The translations under genes and the position numbers were made by a program. DNA of 64,000 nucleotides. It comes from Hymenobacter sp. CRA2 (GTDB taxonomy: Bacteria; Bacteroidota; Bacteroidia; Cytophagales; Hymenobacteraceae). The DNA is taken from assembly GCF_002007105.1 (NCBI RefSeq), contig NZ_MVBC01000012.1, forward strand, positions 124,001 through 188,000, given 5' to 3'. Under the pieces are notes generated by a model, which saw only the letters and a program-made list of their open reading frames with translations, had not been told where the DNA came from and did not search any database. Position 1 is the stretch's first letter, and each line of letters begins with the position of its first letter. Shown here in pieces: positions 11,062 to 33,904 of this stretch.

Positions 11062-14000
11062 ATGCCTACCCCCCGATTGCTCCGCCTGCCGCTGCTGGTG
11101 CTGCTGGCCTTGCTATGCGCGTGCTCCAAACCCAATAATGACAACGCGGCAACCAACGCCGCCGACGGCGAGGAAATCGACCCGTACGAAAATCTGGTCT
11201 TCAACTTCGACGAACCGGTGGCCACCGACGCCCAGCTCAACCGCTGGGACACCACCCAGGTCGTGCGCTTCGAGCCGGCGGTGCGGGGCAAGTTTAAGTG
11301 GACCTCGGAGCGGGAGCTGGTGTTTTCGCCGGCCGAGCCGTTTCGGCCGAGCACGGCCTTCAAGGCCGAGCTGCGGCCCGAAAGCCTGCCCAGCGGCAAG
11401 CAGAAGGCCAAAATCAACCGCACCGAGTTTCACACGCCCTACCTGCGCATGAGCGAGCCGCAGGTGTTCTGGACGGCTTCGCAGCAGGGCAGCGAGCCGC
11501 AGGCCCGGCTCAACGCGGTGTTTAACTACGCCGTGCGCCCCGCCGACCTCCGCCCGCGCCTGCGCCTGACGGCGGGCGGGCAGTCGGTGCCGTTCGAGGT
11601 TATATCCGCCGAACCCGACCGCGTGGTGGGCATCCGGCCCACGCAGCCGCTGGCGCCGGGCGCCCTGGTGGAGCTGCACGTAGAGCCCGGCCTCAAGCCC
11701 GTAGGCGGCGGCAAGGGCACGGCGGGCACGCTGGAATCCTCAGCCCCCGTACCGGACCCGCGCCAACTGCAGGTGCGCGAGCTGACCGGCTCCCTGCTCA
11801 ACGGCGAGCCGGTGGTGACGGTGCTGACCGACCAGCCCATTTCGGCCGAGCAGGCGCAGACGGTGGTGCGGGTGTCGCCCACGGTGCCGTTTGCGGTGGA
11901 GGCGCTGGAAAGCGGCTTCGTGCTGCGCGGTGGCTTTGAGGTGGGCAAAAGCTACACGGTGAGCCTCGCGCCGGGCGCTTACGGCAGCCTGGGCGGGCAG
12001 ATTACCGAGGCGTTCAGCCAGACGGTGTCTTTCGGCGACGAGCGGCCCAGCATCAGCTTCGCCAACGGCGACAAGGCTATGTACCTCGGCGCCCAGGGCC
12101 TGCGCAACCTCGGCCTGCGCATCAACGAGGTGGACAAGGTGAAGGTGAGCATCTACAAGGTGTACGCCAACAACATCCGCGAGCTGCTGCGCAACGGCCA
12201 GCAGTACGGCTACGGCGGCGAGGACGGGGAAGGCGGCGACGAAGGCAGCAGCTACGAGGACGGCGAGTATGTCGACCACAGCTACAACTACTACAACACC
12301 GAGGACTTCGGCAACCTGCTCACCGAGCGCACTTACACGACTTCGGGCCTGCCCAAAGCCGGGGCGCTGCGCCTGTTGCACCTCTCGCTGGATGAGCTGG
12401 AGTTTGGCAATCAGCTGAAAGGGCTGTACGTGGTGAAGGTGCAGGACACCGAGCGGCAGTGGCTGCAGGTCTCGAAGCTGGTGGCCGTGTCGGACCTGGG
12501 CGTGGTGGTGAAGCGCGACCAGAACGGCGGGGCCATGGTGTTCGTGAATTCCCTGCGCACGGCCAAGCCGGTGGGCGGGGCCGCGGTGCGCTTCGTCAGC
12601 CAGAACAACCAGGTGATGTTCAACGGCTCGACCAACTCCGGCGGCGTGGCCATGCTCGGGCAGGCCGACAGCGTGGCCAGCTCGCGCTTTCAGCTGGCTA
12701 TGGTGATGGTGCAGAACGGCGCCGACTTCACCTTCCTGGAGCTGGAGCGGGCCCGCGTGGAAACCTCGCGCTACGACGTGGGCGGCCTGCAAGCCAACCC
12801 GGCCCACTTCCAGGCCTTCCTCTACGGCGACCGGGACCTGTACCGCCCCGGCGACACCATCCGCACCAACACCGTGGTGCGCACCGACGACTGGCGCGCG
12901 CCCGGTGCGGTGCCCATGAAAATCCGCCTTCTGCTGCCCTCGGGCAAGGAATACGCCAGCTACCGCCGCACCCTGAGCAAGAACGACGGCTCGTTCGAGG
13001 CGCAGTTTATCCTGCCGCCGGCGGTGATGACCGGCCTGTACACGATGGAAGTGCTGACCGGCAACGACGTACTGCTGACCTCGCGGCAGGTGAGCGTGGA
13101 GGAGTTTATCCCCGACCGCCTGAAAGTAACCGTGACGGCCACGCCCAAAGCCGTGCAGCCCGGCCAGACGGTGCGCGCCGCAGTGCTGGCCCAGAACCTA
13201 TTCGGCCCGCCCGCTACCGACCGCAAGGTGGAAGTGGAATTCTCGCTTAAGCAGAAGCCCTTCGCCCCCAAGGACTACCAGGACTACGATTTTACCATCC
13301 AGAGCGGCACCGAGCGCCGCGGCTCCTACGGCGAAGAAGGCTCCGACAACTCCCTGAACGAGCGGTTCGAAAAGGCCGTGCGCGAGGCCCGCACCGACGA
13401 GCAGGGCCGCGCCGTGGCCGAGTACGAAGTGCCCGCCTACACCGACCTCGGCACGCTGGAAGGCACCGCCTTCGCCACCGTGTTCGACGAAACCGGCCGC
13501 CCGGTCAACCGCCTCGCTAGCTTCGAAGTGCAGACCCAGCAGGTGATGTTCGGTATCAAGCAGCTGCCCGAGCTGGTGAGCACCCGGCAGGCCCTGCCTT
13601 TGCGCATCGTGGCGTTGAATCCGAAAGGCGCCGCCGCCCAGGCCAACGGGCAGGTGCGCATTGTGCGCATCTTGTGGGAAACGGTGCTGGAGCGCCAGGG
13701 CGGGCGCTACACCTACAACTCCCAGCGCAAGGAGCAGACGGTGCTCAACACGCCCATCGTGGCCGGACCGGTGGCGGCCGTGGACTTCACGCCGGTGTAC
13801 TCCGGCGAGTACGAGGTACGCGTGTCGCGGCCCGGTGCGGCCACCTACGTGGCCCAGCGCTTCTACGCCTACGGCTACGGCGATACCCAGAGCAACGCCT
13901 TCGAGGTGAGCAACGAGGGGCAGGTGCAGATCGAGGCCGACAAGGAGAAGTACCAGCCCGGCGACAAGGCCACGCTGCTGCTCAAGACGCCCTTCCCCGG

Positions 14001-16626
14001 TCGCGTGCTGGTGACGGTGGAGCGCAACCGCGTGCTGGAGCACTTCTACGTGGATACCGACGAGAAATCGGCTAAGGTGACGGTGCCCATCCGCGCCGGC
14101 CACGTGCCCAACGTGTACGTGACGGCCACGGCCATCCGCCCGCTGTCGGCCGATTCCAAGATTCCGCTGACCGTGGCCCGGGGCTTCGTGCCGCTGACGG
14201 TGGAGAAGCCCGACGCCCGCCTGCCCGTGGCCATCAAGGCCGTGGCGCAGAGCCGCTCCCAGACCTGGCAGACGGTGGAAGTGCAGACCAAGCCCGGCGC
14301 GGCCGTGACCCTGGCTATGGTCGACGAGGGCATTCTGCAGATGAAAAACTACCGCACGCCCGACCCCTTCGGCTACTTCTACCAGAAGCGCGCCCTGGAA
14401 GTCTCGGCCCACGACGTGTACCCCTTCCTGCTGCCCGAGCTGGGCACCTCCTCCTCGGGCGGCGACGGGTACGGCCTGAACCGCCGCACCACGCCCGTGC
14501 CCTCGCGCCGGGTGCAGCTGGTGGCCCGCTGGAGCGGCGTGAAGCGTGCCGACGCCAACGGCCGCGTGCTGGTAAAGATGCGCGTGCCGCAGTTTAGCGG
14601 GGCCCTGCGCCTGATGGCCGTGGCCTACAAGGGCGACGCCTTCGGCTCGGCCGAGCACACCATGCGCGTGGCCGACCCGGTGGTCATCAGCACCGCCCTG
14701 CCCCGCTTCATGAGCCCCGGCGACACGATTGACGTGCCGGTGACGCTGACGAATACGACGGGGAAGGAAATGATTGTGGCAGTAAGACAGAAAACGACTG
14801 GCGCTATTGAGCCATCTGAATGGACATCTGCCGGCGGCGTTGATGGGGTGCCCTTGCAACGAATGCGTGCCAACGACAACTATAGTAAAGTCGCCAAACT
14901 TCGTCCCAATGCCGAACAACGAGTTGTTTTTCGCATCAATGCAAAACCAGAAGTTGGTAGCGGCAGTGTAACAGTCACCGTAACTGTTCCCGCGAAAGTT
15001 GGACGCGAAACCTTCACCGAAACCATCGAACTACCCGTCCGCCCGGCCTCGCCCTTGCAGATGCGCACCGGTTCGGGCGTGGTGGCGGGCGGCAAGGCGC
15101 AGGCGCTGGACTTGCGCACCGACTTTATAGCCGCGGCCCAGCGCAGCCAGCTGGTTCTCAGCCGCTCGCCGATGACGGAGTTCAGCAAAGACCTGCGCTA
15201 CCTGTTGCAGTACCCCTACGGCTGCCTGGAGCAAACCGTGTCGGCCGCCTTCCCGCAGCTTTACTACCCCGACCTGGCGGCTACGCTGGGGCAGACCAAA
15301 AAGGCCCAGCGCTACAACCCTAACTACCACGTCCAGGAGGCCATCCGCAAGATTGAGAGCATGCAGCTCTACAACGGCGCCCTCAGCTACTGGCCCGGCG
15401 GCGACTACGACAACTGGTGGGCCACCGCCTACGCCGCCCACTTCCTGCTCGAAGCCAAGCACGCCGGCTTTGCCGTGAACCAGAGCATCCTCGACAAAAC
15501 GCTGCGCTACCTGCAGTACCGCATCCGCAAGCGCGAAACCGAGGACTACCAGTACTTCGACGCCGCCAACATTGCCCGGCAGAAGACCATTGCCAAAAAG
15601 GAAATTGCCTACTCGCTCTACGTGCTGGCCCTGGCCGGCCTGCCCGATCCGGTGGCGCTGAACTACTACCGGGCGAACCAGCGCCTGCTGGCCCAGGATT
15701 CGCGGTTCGTACTGGCCAGCACCAGCGCCTTGTCGGGCCAGACCAAGGGCTTCCGCGACCTGCTGCCGCGCACCTTCAACGAGCCCGCCGCCCACCGCGC
15801 CTTCGACGGCTCGTTCTACTCGCCGGTGCGCGACCTGGGCCTGGCCCTGAACACCCTCATCGAAGCCGACCCGCAGAACCCGCTGGTGGCCCAGATGGCC
15901 CGGCAACTCTCGCGGCAGGTGAAGCAGGCCGGCTGGCTGAACACGCAGGAACGCAGCTTCGCGCTGCTGGCCCTGGGCAAAGTGGCCCGCCAGAACAAAA
16001 ACGCCACCGTCACGGCCACCCTGGCCGATGCCACCGGCGCCGTGCTCGGTCAGTACAAAGGCCCGCAGGACTTGGCAGTAAACAACGTAGCCAACCGCCG
16101 CCTGAGCCTGCGCACCGCCGGCACCGGCAACCTGTACTACTTCTGGACGCTGGAAGGCATTTCGCCCACTGGCCGCGTGCCCGAGGAAGACCAGTTCCTG
16201 CAGGTGCGCCGGCAGTTCCTGGACCGCACCGGCAAGCCCCTTGGATCAACCACAGGCCGCGCCGAGTTCCGCCAGAACGACCTCGTGGTGGTCAAAATCA
16301 CTTTGCAGGCCAGCCAGTACGCCGGCGAGGTGCCCAACGTGGCCGTGACGGACCTGCTGCCCGCCGGCCTGGAAATCGAGAATCCGCGCATCGGGGCGGT
16401 GCGCGAAATCACCTGGGCCACCGACGCGGCCACGCCCGACTACCTGGACGTGCGCGACGACCGGATCAACCTGTTCACCACCGCGTCGCCGCAGCCGAAG
16501 TCGTTCTACTACCTGGCCCGGGCCGTGTCCAAGGGCACGTTCAAGCTCGGCCCGGTCAGCGCCGACGCCATGTACAACGCCGAATACCACTCCTACGCCG
16601 GCGCGGGCACGGTGCGGGTGCGGTAA
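11062..16626 (+). CDS. Bacterial alpha-2-macroglobulin lipoprotein with thioester
   Basis: A giant 1854-residue envelope protein, predicted to trap proteases attacking the cell. It has a lipoprotein signal (LLALLCAC, lipid Cys at C21), a string of macroglobulin beta-domains, an acidic Gly/Tyr/Glu-rich insert at about residues 380-415, the A2M_N_2 and A2M domains (about 950-1230), and the thioester motif CLEQ at residues 1388-1391 inside an all-helical domain with YGCLEQTVSA. The C-terminal region (about 1700-1854) is again beta. In Proteobacteria such proteins partner PBP1C, and a PBP1C gene lies 1.9 kb downstream here. Bases 14761-15020 (residues about 1234-1320) have markedly different codon use from the rest of the gene. 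Confidence 0.93.
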   Translation: MPTPRLLRLPLLVLLALLCACSKPNNDNAATNAADGEEIDPYENLVFNFDEPVATDAQLNRWDTTQVVRFEPAVRGKFKWTSERELVFSPAEPFRPSTAFKAELRPESLPSGKQKAKINRTEFHTPYLRMSEPQVFWTASQQGSEPQARLNAVFNYAVRPADLRPRLRLTAGGQSVPFEVISAEPDRVVGIRPTQPLAPGALVELHVEPGLKPVGGGKGTAGTLESSAPVPDPRQLQVRELTGSLLNGEPVVTVLTDQPISAEQAQTVVRVSPTVPFAVEALESGFVLRGGFEVGKSYTVSLAPGAYGSLGGQITEAFSQTVSFGDERPSISFANGDKAMYLGAQGLRNLGLRINEVDKVKVSIYKVYANNIRELLRNGQQYGYGGEDGEGGDEGSSYEDGEYVDHSYNYYNTEDFGNLLTERTYTTSGLPKAGALRLLHLSLDELEFGNQLKGLYVVKVQDTERQWLQVSKLVAVSDLGVVVKRDQNGGAMVFVNSLRTAKPVGGAAVRFVSQNNQVMFNGSTNSGGVAMLGQADSVASSRFQLAMVMVQNGADFTFLELERARVETSRYDVGGLQANPAHFQAFLYGDRDLYRPGDTIRTNTVVRTDDWRAPGAVPMKIRLLLPSGKEYASYRRTLSKNDGSFEAQFILPPAVMTGLYTMEVLTGNDVLLTSRQVSVEEFIPDRLKVTVTATPKAVQPGQTVRAAVLAQNLFGPPATDRKVEVEFSLKQKPFAPKDYQDYDFTIQSGTERRGSYGEEGSDNSLNERFEKAVREARTDEQGRAVAEYEVPAYTDLGTLEGTAFATVFDETGRPVNRLASFEVQTQQVMFGIKQLPELVSTRQALPLRIVALNPKGAAAQANGQVRIVRILWETVLERQGGRYTYNSQRKEQTVLNTPIVAGPVAAVDFTPVYSGEYEVRVSRPGAATYVAQRFYAYGYGDTQSNAFEVSNEGQVQIEADKEKYQPGDKATLLLKTPFPGRVLVTVERNRVLEHFYVDTDEKSAKVTVPIRAGHVPNVYVTATAIRPLSADSKIPLTVARGFVPLTVEKPDARLPVAIKAVAQSRSQTWQTVEVQTKPGAAVTLAMVDEGILQMKNYRTPDPFGYFYQKRALEVSAHDVYPFLLPELGTSSSGGDGYGLNRRTTPVPSRRVQLVARWSGVKRADANGRVLVKMRVPQFSGALRLMAVAYKGDAFGSAEHTMRVADPVVISTALPRFMSPGDTIDVPVTLTNTTGKEMIVAVRQKTTGAIEPSEWTSAGGVDGVPLQRMRANDNYSKVAKLRPNAEQRVVFRINAKPEVGSGSVTVTVTVPAKVGRETFTETIELPVRPASPLQMRTGSGVVAGGKAQALDLRTDFIAAAQRSQLVLSRSPMTEFSKDLRYLLQYPYGCLEQTVSAAFPQLYYPDLAATLGQTKKAQRYNPNYHVQEAIRKIESMQLYNGALSYWPGGDYDNWWATAYAAHFLLEAKHAGFAVNQSILDKTLRYLQYRIRKRETEDYQYFDAANIARQKTIAKKEIAYSLYVLALAGLPDPVALNYYRANQRLLAQDSRFVLASTSALSGQTKGFRDLLPRTFNEPAAHRAFDGSFYSPVRDLGLALNTLIEADPQNPLVAQMARQLSRQVKQAGWLNTQERSFALLALGKVARQNKNATVTATLADATGAVLGQYKGPQDLAVNNVANRRLSLRTAGTGNLYYFWTLEGISPTGRVPEEDQFLQVRRQFLDRTGKPLGSTTGRAEFRQNDLVVVKITLQASQYAGEVPNVAVTDLLPAGLEIENPRIGAVREITWATDAATPDYLDVRDDRINLFTTASPQPKSFYYLARAVSKGTFKLGPVSADAMYNAEYHSYAGAGTVRVR
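14761..15020 (+). other. Segment of atypical codon use inside the alpha-2-macroglobulin gene
   Basis: Within an open, uninterrupted frame, this stretch of about 260 bases switches to codons such as GTT, ACT, CGA, CGT, CCA, GAA, AGA and TCT, while both flanks use almost only GC-ending codons. The change begins just after a threonine-rich turn (TNTTGKEM) and ends at ETIELPVRP, covering about one beta-domain before the thioester domain. It looks like a recombined or newly acquired domain segment. Confidence 0.7.
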
Positions 16627-17044: not shown

Positions 17045-17053
17045 CTGCCACCT

Positions 17054-17818
17054 ATGCTACCAACTCCTTCATTGCGCCAGCGCCCACTACTGGCGTTGCT
17101 CCTACTCGTATTCGTCGTATTTGCGGCCCCGGCGCGGGCCGATATCATCAACCTCACCGCCGCCGACAACGGCAAGCAGATACAGGCCACCCAAGGCGAC
17201 GTTATCGTGGTGCGCCTGCCTACGGCCAATGCCCGCTACGGCTGGCGCCTGACGCAGAACTACCCCGGCCTGCTGACGGTGACGCGCAACCTGGTGCTAC
17301 CCGGCCTGAGCAGCGGCGTACCGGGCGCGCCAGCTACCCACGAAATCCAGCTCCAGACCCTCGGCACCGGCGGCGTGGACCTCACGTTCATCTCGGCCGT
17401 GCCGGGCGCGGGCTACTCGCCGCTCGGCGACTTTTTCCACGTCTACCTCACCATCGACAAGCCCGGCGTGGCCAAGCGCGTCAATATCACCGAGTACGGC
17501 AACCACAGCCGCGTCACCGTGAACCAGGGCGACGATTTGCAGATCAAGCTGGGTACCACGGCGGGCTCCAGCATGCGCTGGGAGGTGATGCCCATCAACG
17601 ACGGCGTGGTGGAGCTGATCAATCCCGAGGAAAAACCCTCGAAAAAACGCCCCAAAAAAGCCAAGCCCGGTACGCCGGAGGACGTCGCGTTCAACTTCCG
17701 GGCCCTGAAGCCGGGCCACTCCACCGTGCGCTTCCTCTACCGCGACTCGGCTCAGCCCGATGCCGCGCCTGCCCGCGACTTTGAGCTGCAGATTGACGTG
17801 CCGGTGCCGCCGCGGTAG
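17054..17818 (+). CDS. Exported protein with two chagasin-like domains (candidate I42 protease inhibitor)
   Basis: A 254-residue protein with a signal peptide (LLALLLLVFVVFAAPARA). Two similar halves follow. The first (about 31-135) has GDVIVVRLPTANARYGWRL (RYGWR at 61-65) and LGTGGVDL (GTGG at 104-107); the second (about 141-250) has GDDLQIKLGTTAGSSMRWEV and LKPGHSTVRFLYR. Order and spacing recall the three inhibitory loops of chagasin (NPTTGY-W, GxGG, RPW), which block papain-like cysteine proteases, but the first loop is diverged. A Lys-rich insert lies at about 185-195. It sits next to the alpha-2-macroglobulin gene, which suits a protease-defence role. Other Ig-like periplasmic roles are possible. 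Confidence 0.55.
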   Translation: MLPTPSLRQRPLLALLLLVFVVFAAPARADIINLTAADNGKQIQATQGDVIVVRLPTANARYGWRLTQNYPGLLTVTRNLVLPGLSSGVPGAPATHEIQLQTLGTGGVDLTFISAVPGAGYSPLGDFFHVYLTIDKPGVAKRVNITEYGNHSRVTVNQGDDLQIKLGTTAGSSMRWEVMPINDGVVELINPEEKPSKKRPKKAKPGTPEDVAFNFRALKPGHSTVRFLYRDSAQPDAAPARDFELQIDVPVPPR

Positions 17819-18547: not shown

Positions 18548-20899
18548 ATGAACAAGCGCCGCGGGCTGCGTTTTCTGGGCGGGTTGGCCATTTTAGCCTT
18601 GCTGCTGGCAGGGCTGGACTGGCTGTTTCCGCTGCCGCCCGTTCCGCCCGCCTCGCCCGTGGTGCTGGCCGCCGACGGCTCGGTGCTGCACGCTTACCTT
18701 TCGCCCGACCAGAAGTGGCGCCTGCCGGCCCAGCTGCGCGACATCACGCCCACGCTGCGCAAGGCCTTGGTGGCGAAAGAAGACCGGTGGTTTTACTGGC
18801 ATCCGGGCATCAACCCGGTGGCCTTGCTGCAGGCGGCCGCCCGCAACGCGCTGGGCCGGGGGCGCCGCACCGGGGCCAGCACCATCACCATGCAGGTAGC
18901 GCGGCTGCTGGAGCCCAAGGAGCGCACCGTGGGCGGCAAGCTGCAGGAAATGCTGCGCGCCCTGCAGCTGGAGGCCCATTATTCCAAGGACGAAATCCTG
19001 CAGCTGTACCTTAACCTGGTGCCCTACGGCTCCAACGTGGAAGGTGTAAAATCGGCTGCGCTGCTCTACTACGGCCAGCCCCCGCACTACCTCTCCCTGG
19101 CCCAGACGGTGACGCTGACCATCGTGCCGAACAACCCCACCGGGCTCACGCCGGGCCGGCACAACGCGGCGCTGCTGGCCGCGCGCAACAAGTGGCTGCG
19201 CCGCCTGGGCGCGCAGGGCGTATTTCCCGCCCGCGACATCGAAAACGCCCTGCTGGAGCCGCTGCTGGCCCGCCGCCAAAGCGCGCCGCAACTGGCCCCG
19301 CACCTTTCGCGCCGCCTGGTGCAGGACTTTTACCGCCAACGGGCGGCGCTTTCCCCGCTGGCGGGCGGCAATGGCGGCGTAACCTCCACGCTGGTGCGGG
19401 CCAAACAAGCCAAGGCCGAGGACCTGACGCGCCACTACGTGCGCCGGCTGGCCCCGCTGGGCATCACGCAGGCGGCCGTGCTGGTGGTCAACAACCGCAC
19501 CCGCGCCGTGGAAGCCTACGTGGGCTCGGCCGACTTCCGCGACGTGCTCAATCAGGGCCAGGTCGACGGCATCCGGGCCGTCCGCTCGCCGGGCAGTACC
19601 CTGAAGCCTCTGCTCTACGCCGTAGCCCTGGACCGCGGCTTGGTCACGCCCAAGCGCGTGCTGCCCGACGTGCCCACCAACTTCGGCGGTTTCCGGCCCG
19701 AAAACTTCGACAAGCGCTGCAACGGCGAAGTAACCTTGGAACGGGCCCTGGCTTTTTCGCTCAACATCCCGGCCGTGCACGTGCTGCAGCAGGTGGGCGT
19801 GGGCGAGTTTGCCCAGCAGCTGCGGCGCGCCGGCTTCCGCACGGTGGCGCGGCAGGCGCCGCAACTGGGGCTGAGCACCATTCTGGGCGGCTGCGGGGCT
19901 TCGCTGGAAGAGCTGGTGGGCGTGTACGCGGCCCTGGCCAACGGCGGGCGGTGCCAGCCGCTGCGGTTTTCGGCGCCGAGTGGCGCTGCAGCGCCGGCCC
20001 CGGAGACGCGGCTGGTATCGGAAGCTTCAGCCTTTCTGGTCACCGATATTCTGTCGCAGCTGGTGCGGCCCGACTTGCCGGTGGGCTACGAAAATGCCCT
20101 GCGCCTGCCGCGCATTGCCTGGAAAACCGGCACCAGCTACGGCCGCCGCGACGCGTGGAGCATCGGCTACAACCGCCACTACACCATCGGGGTGTGGGTG
20201 GGCAACTTCGGGGGGCAGGGCGCTCCGGCCCTCACCGGCACCGACGTGGCCACGCCCCTGCTCTTTGACCTGTTCAATACCCTGAGCTACAACGACGGCG
20301 GCGAGTGGTATGCCCCGCCCAAGGAGCTGGACTTCCGCCTGGTGTGCCCCGTGAGCGGGCAGGTGCCGGGCGAGCATTGCCCCGATCAGGTCATGGATTA
20401 CTTCCTGCCCGGCGTGTCCGACGTGCGCCGCTGCGAGCATCAGCAGGAGGTGTTTGTGTCGGCTGACGGGGCGGTGAGCTACTGCCGCGTGTGCCTGCCG
20501 GCCGCGGGCTACCGGCGCGTGCTTTATCCCAACTTCACGCCTGAGGTGCTGGCCTTCAAAGCGGCGCAGGGCCTGCCGCACGCCGTACGGCCACCGCATA
20601 ACCCCGCCTGCGCCGTCGTGCGCTCCGACGACGCGGACACCCAGGCCCCGCGCATCCTCTCGCCCACGCCCAACGCCGAGTACGCGCTGGAGCGCGGCAA
20701 CTCCCAGCAGCTGCAGCTGCGCTGCGCGGCCGCCAACGACGTGCGCCGGGTGTACTGGTACGCCAACGACCGGTTTGTGCAGGCCGCCGCGCCCACCGAG
20801 GCCGTGTTCATCCGGCCCGCGGCCGGGCCGCTGAAGATTTCCTGCGCCGATGACCACGGCCGCAACACCGACGTGCAGGTGCTGGTGCAGCGGCTCTAA
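18548..20899 (+). CDS. pbpC: Penicillin-binding protein 1C
   Basis: A 783-residue bifunctional peptidoglycan synthase anchored by one N-terminal helix. The GT51 glycosyltransferase domain has its catalytic Glu in VAKEDRWF (E78) and GASTITMQVARLL. The transpeptidase domain shows S350-x-x-K353 in GSTLKPL, S404-L-N406, and K526-T-G528 in KTGTSYGRRDAW. A C-terminal BiPBP_C beta-domain (about 695-783) marks it as PBP1C rather than 1A or 1B. The ATG at 18548 is preferred over an upstream in-frame start at 18413, which would run through the Uma2 start region. PBP1C and alpha-2-macroglobulin are a known genomic pair. Confidence 0.93.
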   Translation: MNKRRGLRFLGGLAILALLLAGLDWLFPLPPVPPASPVVLAADGSVLHAYLSPDQKWRLPAQLRDITPTLRKALVAKEDRWFYWHPGINPVALLQAAARNALGRGRRTGASTITMQVARLLEPKERTVGGKLQEMLRALQLEAHYSKDEILQLYLNLVPYGSNVEGVKSAALLYYGQPPHYLSLAQTVTLTIVPNNPTGLTPGRHNAALLAARNKWLRRLGAQGVFPARDIENALLEPLLARRQSAPQLAPHLSRRLVQDFYRQRAALSPLAGGNGGVTSTLVRAKQAKAEDLTRHYVRRLAPLGITQAAVLVVNNRTRAVEAYVGSADFRDVLNQGQVDGIRAVRSPGSTLKPLLYAVALDRGLVTPKRVLPDVPTNFGGFRPENFDKRCNGEVTLERALAFSLNIPAVHVLQQVGVGEFAQQLRRAGFRTVARQAPQLGLSTILGGCGASLEELVGVYAALANGGRCQPLRFSAPSGAAAPAPETRLVSEASAFLVTDILSQLVRPDLPVGYENALRLPRIAWKTGTSYGRRDAWSIGYNRHYTIGVWVGNFGGQGAPALTGTDVATPLLFDLFNTLSYNDGGEWYAPPKELDFRLVCPVSGQVPGEHCPDQVMDYFLPGVSDVRRCEHQQEVFVSADGAVSYCRVCLPAAGYRRVLYPNFTPEVLAFKAAQGLPHAVRPPHNPACAVVRSDDADTQAPRILSPTPNAEYALERGNSQQLQLRCAAANDVRRVYWYANDRFVQAAAPTEAVFIRPAAGPLKISCADDHGRNTDVQVLVQRL

Positions 20900-30913: not shown

Positions 30914-33904
30914 TTACGAGCGCGGCAGGTACTGCTCAAACAAGCTGGCAATGCGCTGGGCCCGGGCCGTGTCGTTGGTATCGGCGGCGGCCTGGTAAAG
31001 GCGGCTAAGGGTCAGGGCTTCGGTCTGAATTTCGCGCTCGAAACGGGCCGGTTCGTGGGTTGTGTAGTAGGCCAGGCTCTGCTGGGCGCGGTTGGTGAGC
31101 AGGTCCATGAGGCGGTGCGCCCGCGGGGCCTCACCGAGCTTGACCAGCGGGGCTACCAGATCGGCCGTGGTGTAGTCGTAGGGTACGGTATCATCGGGCA
31201 TCACGCGCAGGCAGCGGTCGATGACCTGCTTGGCGCGGGCGTGGTTGCCATCGTGCATGTAGGCCTGGGCGAGGCGGGCAAACTGCTCGCGGTAAGCCCC
31301 TACGATGCGGCGCTGCGGCTCGTCGTAGTACACGCGCGGGTTGGCCAGGTTGCGGTACGAAAACTTGCGCATCAGCGAGTCGAACAGCGCCTCCCGGGCC
31401 ACGTAGCCGATTTCCTGGGGCTTGGCTTCGGGGTTCTGGCAAGGCAGCACGCGGTAGGCCATGCCTTCCAGCTGCAGGTAGGGCTCCAGTCCGGCGTACT
31501 CGCTCGGGGCCATGTAGCCCGACAAGTACACCGGCCGCTGCCAGTTGGCCGAAGCAATGATATCGAGCAAAGCCAGCTCCTTTTTCTCCATCACGCCACC
31601 GGCACCGGCCTGCCACTGCATGCGCGGCACCAGCTGCCCCCGCCGCTCCCGCGGCACAATGCCGGCGCGGCGCACGGCGGCGGTGTCCACGTCGAGGTAA
31701 AAGGCGCGCGTGGGGTACGAAAGCAGCGTACGGCCGCTTTGCGTCTGCACTTGCAGCAGGGGCGAGTTCTGGCGCACCAGCTGCATGAATTCGCGCAGGT
31801 TGACGGCCGGCACCGCCGGGTTGGCTACCAGTGGCAGGTAGTCGTTGGTGCCCTGGGTATAGTCGGGGTGGCTCAGCGTCATGGGCAGCGGCGCCGATGG
31901 GCCCATGCGCTGCTGCATCTGATCGATGTACCAATCGGTGTTGAGGTACGGCGACACGGCCACGCGCACGTCGGGCCGGATGCCTTCCACCTGTTGGGCG
32001 TACCAGAGCGGAAACGTGTCGTTGTCGCCGGCGGTGATAAGCAGCGCATTCGGCGCCACGCTGTTGAGCATGTTGCGGGCCCAGTCCAGCGCCAGGTAGC
32101 GGTTGGAGCGGTTGTGGTCGTCCCATCCCTGCTGGGCCATCAGCGCGGGCACCGCCAGGCCGAGGGCCGTGGCCAGCGCCACGCGCAGGCGCTCCGGCCG
32201 CAGCAGGCTCCGCAGGGCCTCACTCAGCGCCAGCACGCCCAGCCCGATCCAGATGGCAAAGGCGTAGAACGAGCCGACGAAGGTGTAGTCCCGCTCGCGC
32301 GGCTCGATGGGCGGCTGGTTCAGGTAGAGCACAATGGCCACGCCCGTCAGCCCGAAAAGCAGGCCAACCACCAGGGCATTGCGGCCGTCGCGGCGCAGGT
32401 GAAAGAGCAGGCCGGCCACGCCCAGCAGCAGCGGCAGGACCAGGTAGTTGTTGCGGGCGGCACTGTCGGCCAGTCGTTCGGGCAGGCCGTTGCGGCGGCT
32501 TTCGGTAGGCCACAACACGCCGGCCTGCTGCACATCGGAGTCGCGGCCAACGAAATTCCACAGGAAGTAGCGCCAGTACATGTGTCCGATCTGGTAGCGC
32601 AGCAGAAAGCCGAGGTTGTCGGCCATGGTGGGACGCTGGTCGGGCTGCACATCCACCCACTTTTGGTACTCGCGCAGGTGGCCGGGCTGGTTGCTGTAGA
32701 GGCGCGGCAGCAGCATTTTGTCCGCGTCGGCGTAGCGGGTTTCGGGCTTGTGCTCCACCACCACGTAGCGGCCGTTTTGCCGCTCGTAGCGCGGGGCACC
32801 GTCTTGCTGTTCCACCGGTTGGGCATTGAACTGCGGCCCGTAGAGCAGGGGCCGGTCGCCGTACTGCTCGCGCTTCAGGTAGCTCACGAAGGACAGCACG
32901 TCGCCGGGGTTGTTTTCGTCGATGAGCGGGTTGAAGCCCGAGCGGATCGGCACGATGAGGTAGGACGAGTAGCCGATGAGCACGAACACCAGCCCCAGCA
33001 GAGCCGTGTTCAGCAGGTGTTTCTGGCGCCGGATGGAGTAGCGGAAGCCAGCTGCCAGCAAGCCCACAAGCAGCAGCCCAAACAGCACGACGCCCGAGTT
33101 ATAGGGCAGACCGAAGGCGTTTACGCTGAGCACTTCCAGGCCGCCGGCCAACGACGGCAGCCCCGGAATGACGCCCACCAGAATCAGTAATACCACGGCG
33201 CTACTCAGGGCGAGGGTGAGCAGCGCCCCCCGCATGGTGGGCTGCGCAGCGCGGCGGAAGTAGAAAATGAAGCCCAGCGCTGGCAGGGCCAGCAGATTCA
33301 GCAGGTGCACCCCGATGCTCAGCCCGATGACGTAGGCAATGAGCACCAGCCATTTGTCGGAATCGGCTTCGCTGGCGCGATTTTCCCACTTCAGCATCAG
33401 CCACACCACCGCGGCCGTGCCCAACGACGACAGCGCGTACACCTCGGCCTCCACGGCGTTGAACCAAAACGAATCGGAGAAGGCCAGGGCCAGGGCCCCG
33501 ACGGCACCGCTGCCGAGGATAAGGGCGGTTTGGCCGGCGGTGGGCTCAACCGGCCGGTCGTCGTGCATGCCTGGACGGTGCAGCGTCAGCTTCCTGGCCA
33601 GCATGGTGATGGTCCAGAACAGCAGCAGCACCGTGAGGGCGCTGCTCAGGGCCGAGAGCAGGTTGACGAGCACCGGCACCCGCGCCCCGTCGCCGAAGGA
33701 AAGCAGGGAAGCCAGCCGGCCCAGCAGCAGGAACGTGGGCGCGCCGGGCGGGTGCGGCACCTGTAGCTTGTGGGCGCTGGCAATGAATTCGCCGCAATCC
33801 CAGAAGCTCACCGTGGGTTCCAGGGTGAGGGCGTAGGTGGCCAAGGCCAAGGCAAAAATCAGTCCGCCGGCGAGGTTGTTGAGCGTGGAATAGGAGTAGC
33901 GCAT
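30914..33904 (-). CDS. DUF2723 multi-pass membrane protein (O-mannosyltransferase-like)
   Basis: A 996-residue protein. The N-terminal DUF2723 domain resembles the GT-C fold of protein O-mannosyltransferases: LTLEPTVSFWDCGEFIASAH carries the conserved acidic pair in the first extracellular loop, and PHPPGAPTFLLLGRL follows. About 12-13 helices run to residue 600; the rest is a periplasmic part with ITAGDNDTFPLWYAQ and helical TPR-like repeats towards the end. Bacteroidota members are thought to add sugars to exported proteins, but this is not shown here. Full length for the family. Confidence 0.88.
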   Translation of the reverse strand: MRYSYSTLNNLAGGLIFALALATYALTLEPTVSFWDCGEFIASAHKLQVPHPPGAPTFLLLGRLASLLSFGDGARVPVLVNLLSALSSALTVLLLFWTITMLARKLTLHRPGMHDDRPVEPTAGQTALILGSGAVGALALAFSDSFWFNAVEAEVYALSSLGTAAVVWLMLKWENRASEADSDKWLVLIAYVIGLSIGVHLLNLLALPALGFIFYFRRAAQPTMRGALLTLALSSAVVLLILVGVIPGLPSLAGGLEVLSVNAFGLPYNSGVVLFGLLLVGLLAAGFRYSIRRQKHLLNTALLGLVFVLIGYSSYLIVPIRSGFNPLIDENNPGDVLSFVSYLKREQYGDRPLLYGPQFNAQPVEQQDGAPRYERQNGRYVVVEHKPETRYADADKMLLPRLYSNQPGHLREYQKWVDVQPDQRPTMADNLGFLLRYQIGHMYWRYFLWNFVGRDSDVQQAGVLWPTESRRNGLPERLADSAARNNYLVLPLLLGVAGLLFHLRRDGRNALVVGLLFGLTGVAIVLYLNQPPIEPRERDYTFVGSFYAFAIWIGLGVLALSEALRSLLRPERLRVALATALGLAVPALMAQQGWDDHNRSNRYLALDWARNMLNSVAPNALLITAGDNDTFPLWYAQQVEGIRPDVRVAVSPYLNTDWYIDQMQQRMGPSAPLPMTLSHPDYTQGTNDYLPLVANPAVPAVNLREFMQLVRQNSPLLQVQTQSGRTLLSYPTRAFYLDVDTAAVRRAGIVPRERRGQLVPRMQWQAGAGGVMEKKELALLDIIASANWQRPVYLSGYMAPSEYAGLEPYLQLEGMAYRVLPCQNPEAKPQEIGYVAREALFDSLMRKFSYRNLANPRVYYDEPQRRIVGAYREQFARLAQAYMHDGNHARAKQVIDRCLRVMPDDTVPYDYTTADLVAPLVKLGEAPRAHRLMDLLTNRAQQSLAYYTTHEPARFEREIQTEALTLSRLYQAAADTNDTARAQRIASLFEQYLPRS

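Follow-up and report, generated by a model that had tools for sequence, protein, structure and literature searches.

The gene for a bacterial alpha-2-macroglobulin (A2M) in Hymenobacter sp. CRA2 carries, just ahead of the thioester domain, an abrupt in-frame block of A/T-ending codons. We read it, with a probability of about 0.7, as one of many alleles of a swappable domain core, recurrently replaced in the A2M of the Hymenobacter group under diversifying selection. The gene lies in a stretch of 64,000 nucleotides, referred to here as the window (contig NZ_MVBC01000012.1, positions 124,001 to 188,000). Between close species, about 210-360 bp that form the core of one beta-sandwich domain are wholly different while the rest of the gene is nearly identical; some 30 bp of 5' shoulder differ along with the core at their silent sites, as does the 3' shoulder to a lesser degree, and alleles of a given type, which are under purifying selection, turn up in more than one species. 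Wholesale replacement of the block is well supported, and diversifying selection on it is likely. The features concerned are the following, with ratios taken from the border analysis described below:

11062-16626, forward strand: bacterial A2M gene (open reading frame with Pfam domains; 1854 aa)
14767-15033, forward strand: hypervariable AT-rich allele block, residues 1236-1324 (maximal-scoring-segment scan; variability and third-position GC content, GC3, in relatives; fold)
14731-14760, forward strand: 5' shoulder, codons 1224-1233 (first strand, DVPVTLTNTT; ratio 0.98, protein conserved)
15001-15030, forward strand: 3' shoulder, codons 1314-1323 (last strand; overlaps the AT-rich segment at its end; ratio 0.72)

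The codon block and the domain that holds it

The codon block in the A2M gene is real. Codons ending in G or C make up 91% of the 1854 codons of the gene as against 42% of residues 1236-1324, and those ending in A or T account for 58% within these residues and 9% outside them. In 30-codon windows GC3 was 0.47, 0.43 and 0.40 at residues 1231-1320, compared with 0.77-1.00 elsewhere in the gene, and the segment scored 70.1 nats, the best of 2000 codon-order shuffles reaching 15.0. The reading frame is open throughout, and no promoter- or terminator-like signals were found inside the block in a search restricted to the sigma-70 consensus, a model that these bacteria may not follow. A first-pass annotation of the window, made from the sequence, had described just such a switch with the frame intact at 14761-15020, and both the switch and its position, to within about 15 bases, are confirmed. 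Among 301 genes of at least 140 codons, sampled from 464 kb of the same genome with the window included, the A2M gene had the deepest internal GC3 dip (0.35 in a 60-codon measure; runner-up, 0.27). It also showed the sharpest internal drop in identity (0.48) among 50 pairs of reciprocal best hits between this genome and a single contig from another genome of the genus, the next value being 0.35, in a pair only 30% identical overall.

The protein belongs to the bacterial A2Ms: A2M_BRD, A2M, MG2, bMG3, bMG5, bMG6, bMG10 and TED_complement all exceed the curated Pfam cut-off, and residues 1388-1391 form the thioester motif CLEQ, a case of the CxEQ of this family, with C, E and Q unchanged across 51 aligned rows. 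Its relatives of solved structure are those of Salmonella (4u48) and E. coli YfhM (4ziq and 5a42), and the closest named relatives of the locus are from Hymenobacter. By eye, the signal region contains a lipobox-like LLCAC.

In an AlphaFold model of residues 925-1854 (930 aa; mean pLDDT 73.6, pTM 0.49), the block is predicted to form the middle strands of one beta sandwich just before the thioester domain, and the conserved anchors its first (PVTLTNTT) and last (FTETIELPV) strands. Bacterial A2Ms ranked first when the model was submitted to Foldseek. The second-longest allele (L085; locus numbers are ours), of 133 residues, was modelled within 176 residues (mean pLDDT 81.6) as a strand-only beta sandwich that has additional strands and a long loop, and fold core motifs are kept among alleles. 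The alignment behind the first model used 51 of 77 available rows and that behind the second 70 of 75; four rows shorter than 880 aa had been left out beforehand, and loci from the genome search that lacked a named twin were excluded. Within the beta-domain that the first-pass annotation had matched to the block, just before the thioester domain, the block covers the middle strands, and the first and last strands are conserved.

In the parts of the structural description used here, MG9 lies in an arm with CUB, TED and CTMG, after the bait-bearing MG8 (Fyfe 2015, PMC4498604), and from its position the block domain is probably MG9. The stretch where the bait would be expected (residues ~1090-1153) has low confidence in the model, yet it shows several invariant positions in the 51 rows. 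The suggested selection on the protease-facing surface is not demonstrated by this pattern: what varies is the domain that follows the likely bait.

Block history and flank history among relatives

Relatives were sampled at one genome per species. Of 142 related loci the best 80 were kept; the gene was recovered at 110 of 111 loci, 13 duplicates were removed, leaving 97, and the window's own copy (L002) was replaced by the window gene. Of the 97 non-redundant genes aligned, 74 belong to the Hymenobacter group, counting the window and Solirubrum, and 23 are outgroups. A long block, of 84-134 residues from anchor to anchor (97 in the window; a spread of up to 50 residues), is present in 65 of the 74 Hymenobacter-group genes, while the other nine, and all 23 outgroups, have a short form of 74 residues. 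Every one of the 65 long-form genes reaches its lowest GC3, in windows of 80 codons, with the window centred in the block. GC3 in the block averages 0.39 (range 0.26-0.72) versus 0.85 for the gene remainder, with 63% AT at 4-fold sites in the block versus 9% outside it. In the nine short forms the mean is 0.75 versus 0.87, and seven lie within 0.14 of their own gene. Changes between forms number at least 8 on the flank tree, 7 of them forced by its starred branches, which is no fewer than with shuffled labels (mean 8.7). Two long-form frames (L078 and L090) end early, beyond the block; counted from where the C-terminal half begins, they run for 703 and 566 aa.

The block does not share the history of its flanks. 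Among 58 Hymenobacter-group pairs whose flanks are at least 95% identical, the blocks were less than 50% identical in 54 and the allele was shared in 4. The Spearman coefficient between block and flank identity was 0.04 over 2080 long-form pairs, and 0.83 over 496 short-form pairs (9 Hymenobacter-group and 23 outgroup genes); these pairs are not independent, and the coefficients are descriptive, not p-values. A variable domain whose history disagrees with that of the rest of the protein is also what characterizes polymorphic recognition domains of the TraA type. The first-pass annotation had taken the same codon pattern in close relatives, together with congruent trees for block and flanks, as evidence that would refute a swap. 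The pattern is indeed shared by all 65 long forms; block and flanks are incongruent, however, so the swap explanation survives. Its proposal of recombination with a distant allele, or of a domain swap, stands as regards a domain-sized replacement but not as a single event, replacement being recurrent at one fixed place across the group.

Individual pairs illustrate the discordance. The two genes with the most similar flanks (L007/L008) have a synonymous divergence (dS) of 0.23 in the gene remainder, and their blocks differ with a nonsynonymous divergence (dN) of 1.3 and a dS of 2.1; in this pair and in L035/L036, block dS is about nine times that of the gene. Allele types also recur across species: in L043/L047, L044/L081 and L061/L074 the block protein is 87-99% identical, with dN/dS of 0.04-0.27 and a block dS (0.13-0.46) lower than that of the gene. 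Nucleotide identities of block and whole gene are 0.967 and 0.904, 0.865 and 0.798, and 0.886 and 0.856, respectively, in these three pairs. Species nearer to two of these genes carry unrelated alleles (L043/L049, flanks 98.8% and block 43% identical; L061/L095, 98.5% and 30%). Recurring types may have passed between species or been kept from a common ancestor, and in either case the neighbours have swapped. The allele pool must be large, since 49 types at 50% identity were counted among 65 genomes.

The extent of the exchanged tract was approached through synonymous divergence per 10-codon bin, expressed as the ratio of 59 close pairs with different blocks to 2027 distant pairs. This ratio averages 0.55 over the gene (sd 0.14) and is 0.87-1.09 inside the block. 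The synonymous sites of the 5' shoulder are as decoupled from species history as the block itself, despite the conserved protein. Beyond the shoulders the ratio is 0.56 in codons 1214-1223 and 0.49 in codons 1324-1333, and lower further 3'. Raw synonymous divergence is 0.34 upstream and 0.31 downstream next to the block and mostly 0.06-0.24 farther away. The largest ratio in any bin outside the block, 1.23, is not among bins with more than 50 comparisons, where the highest after codons 1224-1233 is 0.86. In seven allele-sharing pairs used as a control, values were 0.13-0.47 in the block, 0.31 in codons 1224-1233 and 0.09-0.36 in the flank bins listed. Taken together, the shoulder ratios and the decay of raw divergence indicate that swaps usually carry the block plus some tens of bases. 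In single pairs the raised divergence spills into one flank or the other, to differing extents.

Outside the Hymenobacter group, four Pontibacter-type outgroup genes (L101, L103, L105 and L110) have milder GC3 dips (0.16-0.24) at the same domain, with a conserved protein sequence, and among them the block follows the flanks (86-93% identical at flank identities of 92-96%). A further 20 genomes of the order, 18 from family f11 and two from f18, have a block GC3 that departs from the gene's by no more than ~0.1 and a block identity that tracks the flanks, often at a lower level (0.98 with 0.99, 0.96 with 0.88 and 0.85 with 0.70, among the 25 closest pairs listed); the matched stretches outside the family within the order span 180-273 bp. 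Given this native GC content and this tracking of the flanks, the strong form of the phenomenon is limited to the Hymenobacter group among the genomes examined. In two loci of family f11 (L188 and L189), which also lie outside the Hymenobacter group, this domain is longer, at 99 residues, and its GC is native.

Exchange, base composition and alternative explanations

In the mechanism we favour, the block would be replaced by recombination between strains, with homology provided by the conserved first and last strands and the flanks, and many alleles would be maintained by diversifying or frequency-dependent selection on a domain that may form the face by which a protease trap, or a recognition protein, gains its specificity. 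A large set of alleles, kept under purifying selection within each type and repeatedly replaced between conserved anchors, is the pattern expected of a specificity domain; its role could be to dock particular proteases, to evade a phage or predator ligand, or to mediate cell-cell recognition. Several points weigh against this explanation. The tracts, at a few hundred bp, are shorter than ordinary recombination in bacteria would lead one to expect, exchange within a species is unseen in a sample of one genome per species, the pairs of the border test are not independent, and the structural model is of moderate certainty. Two short forms are AT-enriched (L038, 0.50 with the gene at 0.86; L052, 0.57 with 0.85), and the collections searched yielded neither an AT-rich donor nor a free pool of alleles. 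Block identity nearly equals that of the nearest 300 upstream codons in L061/L074 (0.886 and 0.885) and in L044/L081 (0.865 and 0.858), whose alleles may have been kept since the common ancestor while neighbours swapped, rather than transferred. Finally, block dS exceeds that of the gene in 6 of the 9 allele-type pairs computed, so allele types look old.

This last observation would also fit in-place hypermutation, or very fast relaxed evolution, with drift to an AT-rich mutational balance and no exchange, as would the kept fold motifs and an AT-richness that is apparently stationary, the excess at 4-fold sites being unchanged at a 4-fold divergence (D4) of ~1 or more. However, a block dS far above the gene's in L007/L008 and L035/L036, yet below it in L043/L047, L061/L074 and L044/L081, indicates that the segment is not simply fast-running. 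Length differences of up to 50 residues among long forms, repeated switches between short and long forms and the decoupled silent sites of the protein-conserved 5' shoulder also speak against it, and we consider this explanation improbable. An assembly or sequencing artefact is refuted by 65 separately assembled genomes with an open frame through the block and a recognizable domain.

A fixed place and short tracts could likewise suggest directed exchange, be it site-specific cassette exchange, a diversity-generating retroelement or gene conversion from silent copies. An inverted repeat of 16 nt (88% complementary; 14625-14640 and 15045-15060) brackets the block, but the codons of its 3' arm (residues 1330-1333) vary among relatives and it is probably due to chance, although no expectation was computed. 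A conserved DNA exchange site at the borders was considered and rejected: ACG CTG ACG AAT ACG ACG appears constant by eye, but it is unexceptional against codon conservation across the gene, this stretch being absent from the 25 most conserved 10-codon windows. The border 17-mer occurs in the genome once exactly and at three places with two mismatches. In a DNA search of the same genome (E up to 0.001) the block matched only itself, and no near-identical template copy, as a retroelement would need, was found by this means; reverse transcriptases were not searched for. A profile built on 33 of the 65 long alleles and one outgroup short form matched 91 of 120 genomes, each of them once (the frame hit was 1696-2025 aa long in 89 and 760 and 775 aa in the other two), and no further partial copies of the silent-cassette kind were found in them, though copies without anchors and core motif could escape. 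A single copy per genome argues against retroelement templates, silent cassettes and, less firmly, site-specific exchange, and the variable extension of divergence into either flank in single pairs points the same way. We regard directed exchange as improbable.

The block had been called foreign-looking, and its codon use is indeed unlike that of the host, which would suit plain import from an AT-rich donor with a signature fading over time, as would a weaker correlation of GC3 with that of the host for the block (r 0.38) than for a control segment of the gene (r 0.66). The shared pattern in all long-form genes and the native GC3 at the matched stretch in the 20 examined genes of the order outside the family do not fit such an import. 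Moreover, AT-richness looks stationary: in same-type allele pairs with a D4 of 0.9-2.5, GC content at 4-fold sites (GC4) is 0.26-0.48 in both members, in hosts at 0.87-0.96, the single values being rough (23-37 sites per pair). Diverged alleles that remain AT-rich in GC-rich hosts strain the import explanation and make low GC doubtful as a fading donor signature. Neither plasmids nor phages gave a tblastn match to this one allele, and a scan of IMG/VR with the peptide PVTLTNTT alone, with 0 of 12 candidates confirmed, says little. We regard plain foreign import as unlikely.

Under recurrent replacement of alleles, AT-richness would persist either because the alleles evolve mostly in an unsampled AT-rich pool or because the locus has its own AT-rich balance, with unalignable alleles escaping the process by which GC stays high elsewhere in the genome. 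GC-biased gene conversion has been argued to act in most bacteria, a debated question, in the parts of the source consulted (PMC4450053). A many-allele specificity domain in a complement-like protein such as this one could escape it, its alleles being too different to pair, and sit at the AT-rich mutational balance; an AT-rich balance of the locus would fit the inability of gene conversion to act on unpairable alleles. The AT-rich blocks sit in genes with ~91% GC at 4-fold sites, and the alignable short form is GC-rich in seven of nine cases. The AT-enriched short forms L038 and L052 count against this proposal and slightly lowered our estimate of it. In other genes, local divergence and GC3 were related with a rho of 0.09 (p 0.13; 40 gene pairs, 266 windows), and within genes with a rho of 0.19 (p 0.01; 189 windows), four windows below 50% identity having a GC3 of 0.69. 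This general link is weak, if mildly in favour of a general rule, and weighs against the gene-conversion proposal, which is tentative and in our view rather doubtful. If it were true, high GC in these bacteria would come mainly from recombination, not codon selection. The seemingly stationary AT-richness of a segment unable to pair with its other alleles offers, within one gene, a test of GC-biased gene conversion against codon selection.

Neighbouring genes, paralogues and known systems

Two further genes of the window belong to the setting of the A2M gene:

17048-17818, forward strand: chagasin-type protease inhibitor gene (Inhibitor_I42 in two stretches, by domain search), directly 3' of the A2M gene
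18548-20899, forward strand: penicillin-binding protein 1C (PBP1C) gene (Transgly, Transpeptidase and BiPBP_C, by domain search)

A PBP1C gene is the usual partner of this type of A2M. Relatives of the inhibitor are present in the flanks at 14 of 80 loci and PbpC relatives at 49 of 80; the A2M and inhibitor genes suggest a small anti-protease cluster. Pbp1C is also mentioned in the consulted parts of the structural report (PMC4498604). Compared with a close relative, the PBP1C gene (18548-20896) has a milder internal fall in identity at residues ~226-286 (0.67 between flanks of 0.93), and a TMEM260-like O-mannosyl-transferase gene (30917-33904, reverse strand) falls to 0.60 near residues 71-131, with flanks above 0.9.

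A second A2M gene of the same genome (L206/L208, contig C10, 2183 aa), outside the 301-gene sample, has a comparable dip (lowest 80 codons 0.45, gene 0.83). Its variable, AT-richer stretch, at about residues 1271-1390, lies just before the A2M domain, at the expected bait position, and is variable in outgroups too. It is thus the reverse of the window gene, where variability falls on the domain after the expected bait. In a third A2M-like frame (L207, contig C40; 2045 aa, with CxEQ) such a dip is absent, GC3 falling to no less than 0.74 over 80 codons. Paralogue matches in two relatives (L212 and L228) contain in-frame stops (one TGA, two TAA), which may be frame breaks or alignment across gaps.

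The window A2M resembles the PBP1C-paired type represented by YfhM/ECAM and the Salmonella A2M in its domain make-up, its CLEQ thioester and the PBP1C gene nearby. To our knowledge, no swappable domain core has been reported for that type, whereas we propose one for the A2M of the Hymenobacter group. In a literature search limited to titles and abstract openings of part of the matches among open-licence papers, no description of a swappable A2M domain core or of a Hymenobacter A2M was found. Bacterial A2Ms are regarded as broad protease traps, and we know of no allelic specificity in them. A swappable domain across a whole species group would point to a particular partner, which could be a protease, a phage, a predator or a kin factor, and to selection of the arms-race or self-recognition kind.

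Type I restriction HsdS proteins swap target-recognition domains between conserved anchors, and are like the A2M block in the domain-sized swaps between anchors, protein and function being unrelated. As far as the consulted parts of the reports go, there are also parallels among recognition proteins. TraA of myxobacteria is a kin-recognition receptor with tested specificities and one polymorphic domain, and groupings by the variable domain disagree with those by the whole protein, which was ascribed to horizontal transfer (PMC6372800). TraA and the Hymenobacter A2M thus share one polymorphic domain of discordant history within a protein that is otherwise conserved, TraA being a cell-surface protein (PMC6372800); they differ in protein family, in the group-wide AT-richness of the A2M block, and in that recognition is a candidate role for the latter. 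VARTIG of Thermococcales, a hypervariable Ig-type domain in a large protein, was ascribed to recombination between relatives, and recognition was proposed as its role (PMC8416519). The VARTIG domain is C-terminal and followed by variable downstream genes (PMC8416519), whereas the A2M block lies inside its protein, between conserved flanks.

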